Part shown: piece after piece, positions 8,933 through 23,370 of the stretch
Layout of the letters: each line of letters begins with the position of its first letter
Position numbering within the stretch: the first letter of the stretch is position 1
Assembly (NCBI RefSeq): GCF_003610695.1
Contig: NZ_RAQH01000001.1
Location: 496,001-560,000 of the forward strand
Direction: 5' to 3'
Source of the DNA: Epilithonimonas arachidiradicis
GTDB lineage: Bacteria; Bacteroidota; Bacteroidia; Flavobacteriales; Weeksellaceae
Length of the DNA: 64,000 nucleotides
Notes under the pieces: model-generated
What the model was told of the DNA's origin: nothing
The model's database searches: none
The model's input: the letters and a program-made list of their open reading frames with translations, nothing else
Program-made: the position numbers and the translations under genes

Positions 8933-10099
8933 TTAATCGTTTCCGAATAAATCTCTGGTATATACTTTTTCTTTTACATCCTCCAATTCTGGAGTATTTC
9001 GGTTGGATATGATAATGTCACATTCTTGTTTAAAAGCTTCCAAATCCCGAGATACCTTCGATCCAAAAAAAGAATCTTCTTTCAGAACAGGTTCATAAAC
9101 AACTACTTCCACGCCTTTTGCTTTAATCCTTTTCATAATGCCTTGTATTGCTGATGCCCGGAAATTGTCTGATCCGGATTTCATTATTAATCGATAAACA
9201 CCAACTTTCTTCGGTTTTTTCTCCAAAATAGAATCCGCAATAAAATCTTTTCTTGTGCGATTAGCATCCACAATAGCTTGAATAAGATTATTGGGAACCG
9301 AATTATAATTGGCCAGCAATTGTTTGGTGTCTTTTGGGAGACAATAGCCACCATATCCAAAAGATGGATTGTTATAATGAGAACCTATTCTTGGATCTAG
9401 TCCTACGCCTTCTATAATTTGACGGCTGTCCAATCCGTGTATTTGGGAATAACTATCCAATTCATTGAAGTAAGCTACACGCATTGCCAAATAGGTATTT
9501 GAAAATAATTTGATAGCTTCTGCCTCTGTTGCATTGGTAAAAAGAGTGGGTATATCTTTTTTTATAGCGCCTTCTTTCAAAAGATTTGCAAAAACTGTTG
9601 CCCGCTCACTTTGTTCTCCAATAATAATTCTCGAGGGATAAAGATTATCATAAAGTGCTTTTCCTTCCCTCAAAAACTCTGGAGAAAATATAATGTTGTT
9701 AAAGTCTAAATCTTTTTTCAGGTTTTCGGTGAACCCAACAGGAACAGTTGATTTTACAATAACAACTGCTTTTGGATTGTTTATTTTAACTTCCTTTATC
9801 ACATTTTCAACACTATTCGTATTGAAGTAATTGGTTGAAGGGTCATAATCTGTTGGTGTGGCAACTATAATAAAATCCGCATTTTTATAAGCCTCTTCTT
9901 TATCAAGGCTTGCTTTTAGATTGAGACTTTTTGTTTTTAGGAATTCTGTAATTTCAGGGTCATCAATTGGAGATTGCTTATTGTTGAGCATTTCAACTTT
10001 TTCCGGAATAATGTCCAGGGCAATTACATTATGATGTTGCGCTAACAAAACAGCATTAGACAGTCCAACATATCCGGTTCCAACAATTGTAATATTCAC
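8933..10099 (-). CDS. ugd: UDP-glucose 6-dehydrogenase
   Basis: A 388-residue enzyme, the same length as the enterobacterial Ugd, which it resembles along its whole span. GTGYVG (7-12) binds [12 protein letters not shown] and [16 protein letters not shown] are family blocks, and the catalytic cysteine is C253 in [11 protein letters not shown]. It oxidises UDP-glucose to UDP-glucuronate. As the first gene of the operon it suggests the exported polysaccharide contains glucuronate or a derivative. The divergent rimP promoter lies 80-110 bp upstream of its start. Confidence 0.95.
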
Positions 10100-10131: not shown

Positions 10132-10175
10132 AGAAAAAATTACTTGCAGTATATATAATTGAAATAATTGGTTTC

Positions 10176-10206
10176 TTGTATATTAAAGAAAAAATAATTA
10201 TATTTG
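10176..10206 (+). promoter_or_regulatory. promoter of rimP-nusA-infB
   Basis: TTG at 10176-10178, a 20-bp spacer, then TATATTTG at 10199-10206: a full match to the Bacteroidetes TTG-N17-23-TAnnTTTG promoter. It lies about 78 bp before the rimP ATG, leaving a leader of about 70 nt. Confidence 0.75.
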
Positions 10207-10230
10207 CAAAAGATTTACGGGAAAAATGGG

Positions 10231-10256
10231 AAGGCTTTCGCAAGAATGCCTTTTTT
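10231..10256 (+). terminator. leader hairpin plus T-tract, attenuator-like, ahead of rimP
   Basis: AAGGC (10231-10235) pairs with GCCTT (10248-10252). Inside it, after one T-T mismatch, TTC/GAA closes a GCAA tetraloop (10240-10243). T51-T56 form a six-base T run directly on the 3' side. It sits between the promoter and rimP, where a conditional terminator would be placed. Structure predicted by eye; function inferred. Confidence 0.55.
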
Positions 10257-10268
10257 CGTAGATATAAT

Positions 10269-10279
10269 TAGGAGGTGAT
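10269..10279 (+). promoter_or_regulatory. very strong Shine-Dalgarno of rimP
   Basis: The run TAGGAGGTGAT contains ten bases complementary to the conserved 3' end of 16S rRNA, ending five bases before ATG 10284. Few other genes in this window show even a core GGAGG, so this site is exceptional. It also decides the start: the upstream GTG at 10275 is part of the Shine-Dalgarno itself. Confidence 0.8.
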
Positions 10280-10283
10280 AATT

Positions 10284-10751
10284 ATGGATTTTAAATCGGA
10301 AATACATCGTTTGCTTAACGAGTTTCTTTTAACAAGACCAGATCTTTTTTTAGTAGATCTTAAAATTTCTGCTTCTTCGGATATCACAGTGATTTTGGAT
10401 GGTGACAATGGTGTTACGCTTCAGGATTGTTTAGATGCAAGCAGGGCGATTGAATTCAATATGGATCGTGAGATTCACGACTTTAGCCTTCAGGTGATGT
10501 CTGCGGGATTGAGTGAGCCATTGGAATTTCCAAGACAATTCAGGAAAAATATTGGAAGATCAATTGATATATTGTTAAGCGATGATTCCAAAGTTGAAGG
10601 AGAGTTGGTGAATGTGGATGATGAGAAAATTGTAATCCGGTTAGAATACAGACGCCCAAAATTAATCGGGAAAGGAAAAGAAGATGTGGTTGAAGATAAA
10701 GAAATTCCTTATTCCGAAATCAAAAAAGCATTAGTAGTAATAAAATTTTAA
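10284..10751 (+). CDS. rimP: ribosome maturation factor RimP
   Basis: A 155-residue protein starting MDFKSEIHRLLNEFL. The N-terminal alpha/beta domain contains VILDGDNGVTLQDCLDASRAIE and VMSAGLSEPL, and the C-terminal SH3-like barrel follows (about residues 85-155). RimP is needed for 30S subunit maturation. I chose ATG 10284 over the GTG at 10275 because the latter lies within the ribosome-binding site. First gene of the rimP-nusA-infB operon, an order conserved across bacteria; nusA follows after 46 bp. Confidence 0.95.
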   Translation: MDFKSEIHRLLNEFLLTRPDLFLVDLKISASSDITVILDGDNGVTLQDCLDASRAIEFNMDREIHDFSLQVMSAGLSEPLEFPRQFRKNIGRSIDILLSDDSKVEGELVNVDDEKIVIRLEYRRPKLIGKGKEDVVEDKEIPYSEIKKALVVIKF

Positions 10752-10797: not shown

Positions 10798-12030
10798 ATG
10801 GATAATTTAGCTTTAATAGAAGCCTTTGGTGATTTTAAAGAGATAAAAAATATCAGCAAAATAGATTTAATGGCTATTATCGAAGATTCTCTTAAGACTC
10901 TTCTTAGAAAAAGATATGATTCTGATGACCATTTTGATGTGATTGTGAATCCTGATAAAGGAGATTTTCAGATCTTTTTGAACAAAGTCATTGTTGAGGA
11001 TGAGATGTCTGAGGATGATGACCTGGAAATCGAGATTTCTGAAGTTAGAAAAATTGACCCGACTTTTGAAGTAGGTGAAGAATATACGCAAGAGATTCCT
11101 GTATCCAAATTAGGAAGAAGAAATATCTTAACACTTAAGCAGATCTTGGCTACAAAAATCCAGGAGCATTTTAATGCAGCATTGTACGATCAGTTCCGTG
11201 ATAAGATCGGAGAATTGGTCGTTGGAGAAGTTCACCACATCCGTCACAAACATGTTATTTTGCTGGATGATGAAGGCAATGAATTCATCCTTCCAAAAGA
11301 AAACCAAATCCCTTCTGACTTTTTCAAAAAAGGTGATAATGTAAGAGCAATTGTAGAAAGTGTTGACTTCAGAGGATCAAAACCTCAGATTATGGTTTCC
11401 AGAACAGCGCCTAAATTCCTTGAAGAATTATTAGAGCTTGAGATTCCGGAAATCCAGGATGGAACAATTATCTTGAAAAAAGTAGTTAGAATCCCGGGTG
11501 AAAAAGCGAAAATTGCTGTAGATGCTTACGATGACAGAATCGATCCGGTTGGCGCTTGTGTCGGTGTGAAAGGTTCAAGAATCCACGGAGTCGTAAGAGA
11601 ATTAAGAAACGAGAATATCGATGTGATCCAATGGTCTAAGAATCCTGAGATTCTTGTGAAAAGAGCTTTAGGAAACATTACAATTAATAAGATTGAGGTT
11701 AATCCGGAAACTAATTATGCTTTGGTTTACACACCGGTTGACGAGATCTCTAAAGTGATTGGAAAACAAGGTCAGAATATCAAATTGGCATCATGGTTGT
11801 CAGGATATGAGATCGATGTTTACAGAGAAACTTCGGAAGATGATGATGTTGAATTGGTAGAATTCAATGACGAGATCGAATCTTGGATTATCGATGAGTT
11901 CAAAAAAGTCGGATTGAATACGGCAAGAAGTGTTCTTGATAAAGATACAGAAGCGTTGCTGAATATTGTTGACCTGGAAGAGGAAACAATTGAAGAAGTG
12001 AAAAATATTCTAAGAGAAGAATTAGAATAA
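10798..12030 (+). CDS. nusA: transcription termination/antitermination factor NusA
   Basis: A 410-residue protein with the NusA order: N-terminal RNA-polymerase-binding domain (1-~125), an S1 domain (about 135-200, GELVVGEVHHIRHKHVILL), then two KH domains (GVKGSRIHGVVREL and GKQGQNIKLAS). It stops soon after a short acidic tail, without the C-terminal repeats of enterobacterial NusA, as is usual outside proteobacteria. It modulates pausing, termination and antitermination, which makes the hairpin in its own operon leader notable. Confidence 0.97.
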   Translation: MDNLALIEAFGDFKEIKNISKIDLMAIIEDSLKTLLRKRYDSDDHFDVIVNPDKGDFQIFLNKVIVEDEMSEDDDLEIEISEVRKIDPTFEVGEEYTQEIPVSKLGRRNILTLKQILATKIQEHFNAALYDQFRDKIGELVVGEVHHIRHKHVILLDDEGNEFILPKENQIPSDFFKKGDNVRAIVESVDFRGSKPQIMVSRTAPKFLEELLELEIPEIQDGTIILKKVVRIPGEKAKIAVDAYDDRIDPVGACVGVKGSRIHGVVRELRNENIDVIQWSKNPEILVKRALGNITINKIEVNPETNYALVYTPVDEISKVIGKQGQNIKLASWLSGYEIDVYRETSEDDDVELVEFNDEIESWIIDEFKKVGLNTARSVLDKDTEALLNIVDLEEETIEEVKNILREELE

Positions 12031-12137: not shown

Positions 12138-14981
12138 ATGCCAAAAATAAGATTAAATAAAGCCGTTAAAGAACTGAACATATCTATACCCAGAGCTGTG
12201 GAATATCTCCAGAGCAAAGGCATAGCTGTGGACAGTAATCCTAACGCTCTATTAGAAGACCAGGCATTTTCTGCATTGGAAGCTGAGTTCCGAAAAGATG
12301 GAGAACAAAGAAAAGCTTCTCATGAGGTTGTGATTTCTAAAGTTCCTGATGAAAAATTAGCAATTGAAGAAAAAGCTCCTGAGGTAATAAGAGCCAAAGC
12401 AAATCTAAGACCTGAGACCAAGGTTCTAGGAAAAATAGATCTTAATTCTGCAAAACCGACTGAAGAGACAGCTCCAGCAGAACCGGTGCAGGAAAAAGTA
12501 CAAGAGGAAAAGCCGGAAGTTGTTAAGAAGGAAGAGAAACAAGAGTTCAAAGTTTTGGATAAAATCGATTTATCAAAACTGGAAAGCAACAAACCAAAAG
12601 CTTCTAAGGAAAAAGAAGAGGTGAAGGAAACGCCAGCTCCATTTGCTAAGGAAGAAGCTAAACCTGAAGTGAAAGCTGAAAAAGCAGCTGAACCAGAACC
12701 GCCTTCTACCCCTGAGTCGGACGAACCTCAAAAAATTGAAACGGTTTATCAAAAATTAGACGGCCCGAAAATTTTAAAACAGACTGTCGACCTTTCTCAG
12801 TTTAATAAACCAAAACCTTCTGGTAATTCTAACAATGCTGCAAAGAAGAAGCGAAAAAGAATTACTAAGGATGTTCCGGGACAGAATAACGCAGGTCAAG
12901 GAAACAATCAACAAGGTGGAGGAAACAGACCAGGTCAAGGCGGTCAAAACCGACCACAAGGCCAAGGTGGTAATAATCAAGGCGGAAACCGTGGCGGAAA
13001 TAATAACAACCGTGGAAATAATAACAACCGCGGCGGTAACAACAGAGGACAAGCTCGTGTGATGCCTGTTGAGCTTACCGATGAGCAAGTTAAAAATCAA
13101 ATTAAAGAAACTCTAGAAAAACTGACTAACAAAGGCGGTAAGTCTAAAGGATCTAAACATAGAAAAGAAAAGAGAACCTGGAGAAGAGAGCAAGACGAAC
13201 TTCAGCAAGAGATTGACGCACAGGACAGAACTTTAAAAGTTACAGAATTCATTACGGTAAGTGAATTGGCTTCATTAATGAACGTCAGTGCAACAGAAGT
13301 TATTTCTGCTTGTTTCTCCTTAGGCGTGATGGTAACAATGAACCAGCGTCTTGAGGCTGATACTTTAACCTTAGTAGCTGATGAATTTGGTTATAAAATC
13401 GAATTCTCGGATGCTGATATCGAAGAAGCTGCAGCCGAAGAAGAGCCGGATGCAGAAGAAGATTTGTTACCAAGAGCACCTATCGTAACGGTGATGGGAC
13501 ACGTTGACCACGGTAAAACATCATTGCTGGATTATGTTAGAAAAACAAATGTTATCGCCGGTGAATCCGGAGGTATTACGCAGCATATTGGTGCATATAA
13601 CGTGAAACTGGAAAACGGACAGAGAATTACATTCCTAGATACACCAGGTCACGAAGCCTTTACAGCGATGAGAGCGAGAGGTGCGCAAGTTACCGATATT
13701 GCGATTATTGTAGTGGCTGCCGATGATGATGTAATGCCACAAACCAAAGAAGCTATTGCACACGCACAAGCTGCTGGTGTTCCGATGATTATCGCCATCA
13801 ACAAAGTGGATAAGCCCAATGCTAATCCTGATAAAATCAGAGAGCAGCTTTCTGCTATGAATGTATTGGTTGAAGAATGGGGTGGAAATGTTCAGGCACA
13901 AGAAATTTCAGCTAAATTTGGTAACAATGTTGAGTTGTTATTAGAAAAGGTTCTTTTACAAGCTGAACTTTTGGAATTGAAATCTAATCCAAATAAACAA
14001 GCAAGTGGAGTAGTCATTGAAGCAGCTTTGGATAAAGGTCGTGGATATGTTGCTACAATGTTAGTTCAAAATGGAACTTTAACAGTTGGTGATTATGTAC
14101 TGGCTGGGAAAAATCACGGTAAAGTGAAAGCTATGTTGGATGAAAGAGGTAAACCAATGGAAAAGGCAGGGCCGTCAATTCCTGTTACCATTCTTGGTTT
14201 GGACGGAGCGCCAACTGCGGGTGATAAATTCAGGGTTTTTGCTGACGAAAGAGAAGCGAAATCTATTGCTAATAAGAGAGAACAACTTCAACGTGAACAA
14301 TCTATCAGAACTAAGAAGCATCTTACGTTGGATGAGATTGGCCGTCGTATCGCTTTAGGAGATTTCAAAGAACTGAATATTATTCTTAAAGGTGACGTGG
14401 ATGGATCCGTAGAGGCATTGTCTGATCAGTTACAAAGATTGTCAACTGAGGAAATACAAGTTAACATTCTTCACAAAGGAGTAGGACAGATTACGGAAAG
14501 TGATATCCTACTAGCTGCAGCATCTGATGCGATTGTTATCGGATTTAATGTAAGAGCGAGTGTAAATGCAAAAGATATTGCTGATAAAGAAGAAGTTGAA
14601 ATCAGAACTTACTCTATTATCTATAAAGCAATTGATGAAGTGAAAGAAGCGATGGAAGGATTACTTTCTCCGGAGATACAAGAACAAGTTATTGGTAATG
14701 TTGAGATCAGAGAAGTGTTCAAGATTTCTAAAGTCGGATCGATTGCAGGATGTATGGTTCTTACAGGAAAAGTAACCAGAAATTCTAAGATTAGACTTTT
14801 AAGAGATGGCATTGTGAAATTCGATGGAGAGCTGGAAAGTTTGAAACGCTTTAAAGATGATGTTAAAGAAGTAACCAAAGGTTATGAATGTGGTCTTAAT
14901 ATCAAAGGCTATAATGATATAGAAGTCGGCGATATTCTTGAAGTCTACGAAGAAGTAGCTGTTAAGAAAAAGTTGAAATAA
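12138..14981 (+). CDS. infB: translation initiation factor IF-2
   Basis: A 947-residue GTPase. It begins with the IF2_N domain [16 protein letters not shown], then a long low-complexity linker: Glu/Lys/Pro-rich to about 230, then a Gly/Asn/Gln/Arg-rich block around 250-305. A second IF2_N-like segment ([16 protein letters not shown]) follows, then the G domain with GHVDHGKT near 454, DTPGHEAF and NKVDKP. C-terminal beta-barrel and IF2 domains complete it. It recruits initiator tRNA and joins the subunits. Last gene of the operon, followed by a strong terminator. Confidence 0.97.
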
Positions 14982-14985
14982 TATT

Positions 14986-15012
14986 AAAACCTGCTGAGAA
15001 GCAGGTTTTTTT
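14986..15012 (+). terminator. intrinsic terminator after infB
   Basis: A perfect 10-bp stem (AAAACCTGCT with AGCAGGTTTT) closes a GAGA tetraloop and runs into seven Ts ending at 15012. It lies directly behind the infB stop and ends the rimP-nusA-infB transcript. Confidence 0.9.
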
Positions 15013-23230: not shown

Positions 23231-23316
23231 GGCAGCTATTTCCGCCTTCCGCTCCCAATCTTTTTACTTTTTAGCAAAAAAGCAAAAAGGATTTCCGCTC
23301 AAGTCGGGCTGCAATT
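23231..23316. repeat. dispersed intergenic repeat, copy A (with inner hairpin)
   Basis: From GCTCCCAATC (23251) to GCAATT (23316) it is nearly identical to 28137-28205: the copies differ by one substitution in the T-rich centre, one near the right end, and a 3-base length difference. The centre folds as a long A/T stem (CTTTTTACTTTTT with AAAAAAGCAAAAAG). The left flank 23231-23250, read on the minus strand, resembles the end of the element at 41585-41690. Confidence 0.75.
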
Positions 23317-23370
23317 AAAACATAAAAACAACATTTGTAAATAAATAGAAGCTTAAAACTTTGTTGAGTA

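Follow-up and report, generated by a model that had tools for sequence, protein, structure and literature searches.

The leader of the rimP-nusA-infB operon in the window (the whole 64,000-nucleotide stretch of DNA that was analysed) is predicted to contain an attenuator that is conserved and belongs to a known type, though in a variant form, beside a sequence resembling a canonical Shine-Dalgarno (SD) element. Its hairpin is a conserved, putative transcription-stop-like signal; with it, the rimP-leader attenuator would now be known from the Bacteroidia as well, a class in which control by SD is rare, and exact leader sequences are available. The first-pass annotation had proposed double control of this operon, by transcription attenuation and by ribosomes with an accessible anti-SD; its observations are partly confirmed and its interpretation is partly supported, as the attenuation half holds while the SD half fails.

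The rimP operon and its leader hairpin

The operon comprises, on the forward strand, rimP (10284..10751; Pfam RimP_N and RimP C-terminal domain), nusA (10798..12030; NusA_N and KH_5) and infB (12138..14981; IF-2, IF2_N and GTP_EFTU); a UDP-sugar dehydrogenase gene on the opposite strand (8933-10099) is oriented divergently. Among the best 80 of 199 records, the closest RimP relatives are those of Chryseobacterium sp. 36-9 (98% identical) and of Epilithonimonas species, which marks the host (window at G000:C1:496001-560000) as a flavobacterium resembling Epilithonimonas, of the family Weeksellaceae. A consensus promoter had been annotated upstream and was recovered on the forward strand at 10176..10206, with TTG at 10176-10178 and the -7 box TAnnTTTG at 10199-10206, which together form a promoter of the Bacteroidota type; transcription would start near 10210. 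The box TAnnTTTG is found in 73 of 73 aligned leaders of the host's own family, where TTTG served to cut the leaders and TA is hence the sole independent check, the search for TTG there being loose. The pattern used for the leaders of the sister families demanded TAnnTTTG, and the box is therefore present in their alignment (A2) by construction.

The hairpin, AAGGC-U-UUC-GCAA-GAA-U-GCCUU (10231..10252, forward strand; -8.4 kcal/mol), is composed of an outer AAGGC/GCCTT stem and an inner UUC/GAA stem closed by a GCAA tetraloop at 10240-10243, with six Ts at 10251-10256; hairpin, tetraloop and T-tract are all confirmed. The U-tract is followed by CGTA (10251..10260, forward strand), within the stretch GCCTTTTTTCGTA that is retained in 73/73 aligned leaders, and 27 nt separate the T-tract from the rimP ATG. 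GCCUUUUUUCG would also fit the elemental pause consensus, G-10 Y-1 G+1. Folding of a 121-nt leader stretch yielded -23.1 kcal/mol, compared to -16.5 +- 2.7 for shuffled sequences (z -2.46), with 1 of 200 shuffles as good. The rimP leader hairpin was missed by a simple terminator scan of the window, probably because, with the U-U mismatch inside the stem, its loop exceeds what that scan accepts. Further upstream, the segment GATTTACGG (10212..10220, forward strand) is nearly invariant in the own-family alignment (A1, 73 sequences). Its pairing with the stretch 3' of the U-tract is weakly supported: the outer GATTTAC pairing is present in 73.5% of cells with two-sided changes in 3 of 7 pairs, the UACG/CGUA pairing scarcely varies, and sliding the whole structure by 1-3 columns leaves two-sided changes in 2 to 5 pairs, compared to 4 unslid.

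Conservation across the Bacteroidia

Upstream regions of rimP were collected from 23 genomes of the genus, from 80 named records (the best 80 of 199), from 80 further Flavobacteriales genomes, 20 of them of the own family (RimP being detected in 233 of 296 searched), and from 40 genomes of other orders (RimP in 232 of 246), the latter two sets hand-picked among the matches listed for spread over genera and families. The first 184 loci, the window included, divide into 120 with the own-family form of the leader, 59 with another form and 5 that fit neither (L121, L122, L123, L176 and L184), in which hairpins are visible by eye. Some genomes occur twice among these loci, and the alignments A1 and A2 hold distinct sequences only. 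Prior to counting, two own-family outliers were removed: L120, in which both ATG and 5' segment are missing, was taken out of A1, and L124 out of A2.

The 73 distinct own-family leaders share a weak stem AGGC/GCCU, nearly invariant and capped by a GNRA loop in 61, which is followed by the invariant GCCUUUUUUCGUA including the CGUA after the U-tract. The deviating sequences belong to five deep-branching own-family genomes, L120-L124; in L120, GCC, U-tract and CGTA are kept although the ATG is absent. As separate observations, the deep own-family genera of L121-L124 display different hairpins at rimP, and in L052 the own-family leader (2844-2912) is located some 70-80 nt farther upstream of rimP than in relatives.

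In other Flavobacteriales, the 54 distinct leaders of sister families mostly carry the stem GAGGGGAC/GUCCCCUC at rimP, with 98.6% of cells paired and compensatory changes in 5 of 8 pairs; that number of pairs was attained in 2 of 500 shuffles, and the covariation score in none of the 500. The own-family stem hardly varies, and the equivalent covariation test is therefore nearly empty. The mean hairpin energy is -7.6 kcal/mol in the own family compared to -14.8 in the sister families (53 of 54 measured). Beyond the Flavobacteriales, a terminator-like hairpin was detected upstream of rimP in 39 of 40 genomes, compared to 1 of 120 shuffles that preserve base composition only. The sole miss, L208, has the same stem with an insufficient U-tract, and in L219 the top-ranked hairpin is a different one. 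GGGGAC..GTCCC is present in 24 of these 40 upstream regions, and the looser GGG..CCC in 38. In the own family, AGGC/GCCT stands in place of the GGGc...gCCC stem motif, and the own-family leader is a derived variant. The alignment of rimP leaders across relatives, proposed as a check in the first-pass annotation, thus returned a conserved hairpin with covariation in the sister families, while the SD-like AGGAGGTGAT was not retained.

Both forms are nearly confined to rimP. With a covariance model of the own-family leader, 39 genomes were searched and 24 matched (the 23 of the genus and G165), rimP being the best match in 24 of 24; ten further matches away from rimP are weak (E 0.002 to 0.09). 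The exact pattern of the other form was found in 27 of 40 genomes, with 28 of 29 matches at rimP, a count that tallies one palindromic place twice; the lone match elsewhere is a GGGGAC..GTCCCCTTTTT hairpin at G280:C1:2960342-2960363. Such near-confinement makes a small-RNA family or a regulon less likely and speaks in favour of control by one of the operon's own products.

Relation to known rimP leaders

In build and place, the predicted hairpin is a match to the rimP-leader attenuator named by Naville and Gautheret 2010, with NusA as the proposed effector in the text consulted (PMC2965389). Shared with the description there are the operon, a short terminator upstream of rimP with a G-rich 5' arm, a C-rich 3' arm and a U-tract, and the lack of a visible antiterminator in either. 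The stems differ: the sister families have GAGGGGAC/GUCCCCUC, whereas the own family has AAGGC with a mostly GNRA cap, and GGGc/gCCC would therefore have been reduced to AGGC/GCCU. Two traits of the general rimP-leader form are present, a terminator-like hairpin with U-stretch upstream of rimP and a motif specific to rimP; the main text of PMC2965389 contains neither "Bacteroidetes" nor "Flavobacteri-".

Membership of the gammaproteobacterial Rfam family RF01770, another comparison that had been proposed, fails, with no match at gathering score in the window or in 6 further loci and none up to E 10 at 10150-10330, while the positive control from E. coli scored 102 bits over 102 positions spanning two hairpins. 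RF01770 precedes the same operon, and the E. coli terminator beside rimP, GGGCTTTAGGCCCTTTTTTT, has the same layout. Across Rfam, no family reached its gathering score at the rimP leader, the best sub-threshold matches having E 0.76 to 8.2. A structured 5' element upstream of rimP, kept in other Flavobacteriaceae genera and without Rfam match, has been described in F. psychrophilum (PMC9723704). It is very probably the same element as the present leader; the section of that paper on 5' cis-regulatory RNAs provides neither its sequence nor a mechanism at rimP. In the open-access literature, supplements excluded, we found no description of the sequence or class-wide spread of the leader element; what is new is that the element is described for the whole class, together with the derived form of the own family, which has a weak, mostly GNRA-capped stem, invariant GCCUUUUUUCGUA and an AUG with its A six nucleotides ahead of the AGG of the stem.

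Proposed attenuation under NusA feedback

The best explanation for the leader, and in our view a fairly probable one, is an attenuator under feedback by NusA, where termination, its partial extent and NusA as the effector are all what we infer from sequence and comparison. RNA polymerase would start near 10210 and some 45 nt later meet the weak GNRA-capped hairpin and U-tract, a promoter-proximal intrinsic terminator that would act as attenuator: some transcripts would end at the U-tract, and the remainder would be read into rimP-nusA-infB. NusA from the operon itself would favour hairpin formation and pausing, such that much NusA would yield more termination and less of the operon. With the hairpin placed after the promoter, and the T-tract 27 nt from the ATG, it would hardly act beyond the operon's own transcripts. 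The leader leaves no apparent space for a riboswitch, and an antiterminator is likewise not seen.

NusA feedback through a leader is documented in B. subtilis, where NusA autoregulates via leader attenuation with negative feedback on the nusA operon (PMC12288461, as far as its text was available), and is therefore the likeliest mechanism here. Nus-dependent terminators of B. subtilis go with weak hairpins and distal U-tract interruptions, according to the part of PMC8060035 consulted; in the own family the stem is likewise weak and CG interrupts the U-tract, which together with the published precedents favours NusA feedback. In S. agalactiae, a terminator is located 31 nt after the start site at rimP and NusA leader feedback was proposed (PMC4448216), and NusA feedback was also reported for E. 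coli (PMC6511841), both as given in the portions of text available. Cold-shock induction of the E. coli rimP operon showed no sign of anti-termination in one study, as related in the available text of PMC6511841, and leader control thus need not dominate under every condition. The suggested attenuation, perhaps by NusA, is as a prediction well supported: the element is conserved, covaries in the sister families, is nearly confined to rimP and is suitably placed, and published precedents exist.

The same attenuator may instead respond to another signal, with RimP, IF2 or some different RNA-binding protein recognising the stem, or it may be an unregulated, fixed terminator that only lowers operon output; we regard this as rather unlikely. 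The stem is conserved beyond the apparent need of a terminator (AGGC/GCC in the own family, GGGGAC/GUCCCC elsewhere), and no antiterminator is visible in the ~75-nt leader, which would suit such a reading; the documented precedent, however, is NusA feedback via leader termination.

A conserved AUG at the foot of the stem

An AUG is present in 73/73 aligned own-family leaders, its A being located 6 nt before the AGG of the stem in 71. In the window it opens a possible upstream ORF of 11 codons and a stop (ATG..TAG, 10226..10261, forward strand) that runs through the hairpin. Over the 73 leaders the frame, length and peptide vary, with the frame ending before rimP in 49 and overlapping rimP in 24, and a conserved leader peptide was therefore rejected, leaving the start codon alone.

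This start codon could serve an antitermination coupled to initiation, in which a 30S subunit or ribosome initiating at the AUG would cover the 5' arm and prevent termination, so that read-through would track initiation capacity. Congruent with such a role, the two bases after the AUG vary while an A at -3 is kept in 69 of 73 leaders, a base that favours initiation in F. johnsoniae (PMC6847099, in the text available). Nevertheless, frame and peptide of the leader ORF are not conserved, the own-family outlier L120 is without the AUG, other Flavobacteriales have ATGAG in 35 of 54 leaders, and in other orders an ATG is found near the arm in 9 of 36 genomes (the arm being placed by script in 36 of 40). 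The positive sign of such a loop would moreover be unlike the known control of the rimP operon, and we consider the proposal improbable. Equally a long shot is the combined version, in which the Chryseobacterium/Epilithonimonas leader, its conserved AUG set among As at the foot of the stem, would be a start-codon-fused terminator melted by 30S initiation on top of NusA feedback; if true, read-through into the genes of a 30S maturation factor, NusA and IF2 would report initiation capacity.

The Shine-Dalgarno-like sequence and the host anti-SD

By sequence, genome and window searches, the 16S tail and pairing, AGGAGGTGAT (10270..10279, forward strand) resembles a canonical SD that is mismatched to the anti-SD of the host. 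The first-pass annotation considered it the only perfect long SD of the window, five bases before the ATG. It is indeed the only exact copy in the window (6 copies when one mismatch is allowed, compared to 2.9 expected), and AGGAGGTGATNNNNATG has a single copy in the 3.65-Mb genome, as has AGGAGGTGAT followed by ATG after four bases; rimP however starts at 10284, leaving four bases between, and the sequence is not perfect for this host, the 16S tail of which differs. The one 16S gene found in the host assembly ends ACATCTCATTTT / GGAACATCTCATTTT / GGCTGGAACATCTCATTTT, representing the alternative anti-SD UCUCA, as reported for Chryseobacteria in the text consulted of PMC9976891. A scan of 16S ends in 80 of the 143 genomes first listed matched 30, of which 28 are own-family; 27 of these tails read CATCTCATTTT and that of G303, the genome of L121, reads CATCTCTTTTT. 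Of the remaining two, G526 is canonical and G240 is not trusted as 16S; the pattern misses tails ending CTTTC, and the unmatched genomes therefore say nothing on canonical tails. SD-like sequences in the own family thus need to be read against the altered anti-SD, and the "perfect" SD is here a mismatch.

With its own 16S tail, AGGAGGTGAT forms 6 bp at -7.9 kcal/mol, compared to -14.5 to -15.9 with the canonical tail, the range stemming from slightly different tail forms. The true extended SD of the host is located at rpsU, where the start region (G000:C4 157951-158112, L106) contains AAAATGAGATGT, an exact 12-bp complement of the own tail at -14.1 kcal/mol. The extended SD of rpsU, as described in the accessible text of McNutt 2023 (PMC9976891), shares with AGGAGGTGAT the setting of a long SD-like sequence beside a translation-related gene in a flavobacterium, but fits the host anti-SD over 12 bp, which the rimP sequence does not. 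Extended SDs form 9-13 consecutive pairs with the own tail, compared to the 6 of AGGAGGTGAT, which is not conserved in relatives.

That AGGAGGTGAT works as a long canonical SD, used by ribosomes with a free anti-SD, is accordingly hardly credible. Its pairing with the own tail is the strongest among 50 ORFs of the window, each 120 codons or longer and taken from a simple ORF list (the next reaching -3.7 kcal/mol), and a weak SD contribution thus remains conceivable; GGAGG is furthermore present at 9 of 23 genus loci. Against this stand the UCUCA anti-SD with its 12-bp match at the host's own rpsU, the restriction of AGGAGGTGAT to a single one of 23 genus loci, that of the window's genome, with none in the remaining 22, the occurrence of GGAGG in 0 of 62 loci of L044-L105, mostly Chryseobacterium, and the nearest relative (L026/L004, RimP 98% identical), which is without AGGAGGTGAT and pairs at only -3.2 kcal/mol. 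Double control by SD was hence rejected, and with it the suggested part of anti-SD-accessible ribosomes; the likeness of AGGAGGTGAT to a canonical SD is coincidental, or the sequence is weakly used at most. As a side observation, GGAGG precedes rimP in L007, L010, L014, L018, L019, L021, L023 and L024, as well as in the window's own genome, despite the genus anti-SD UCUCA; AGGAGG might also pair with the CCUUUU of the terminator.

Similarly far-fetched is an antiterminator role of immature 30S subunits, in which the 16S 3' tail would base-pair with the 5' arm of the leader or with the stretch preceding it. In its favour, the AAAAUGRGA of some own-family leaders can form 9 bp with the tail (one of them G-U when R is G), and switched anti-SD and switched leader form occur in one and the same family. 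However, the mean pairing of own-family leaders is -6.4 kcal/mol with their own tail and -6.6 with the canonical one, hence not better, and L109-L114 reach only -2.1 to -4.5. On every third leader, equally strong or stronger pairing was obtained with 33 of 200 shuffled own tails in the own family and with 68 of 200 shuffled canonical tails in the sister-family set; the shuffled-tail test thus lends this pairing no support.

Other RNA elements in the window

A Flavo-1 RNA (RF01705) was detected at 23234-23320 on the reverse strand of the window with 48.5 bits, the gathering score being 42; the authors of PMC9723704 found no real indication of what this RNA does. Just 3' of infB, a symmetric, terminator-like hairpin is located at 14986-15009 of the window and is listed on both strands.
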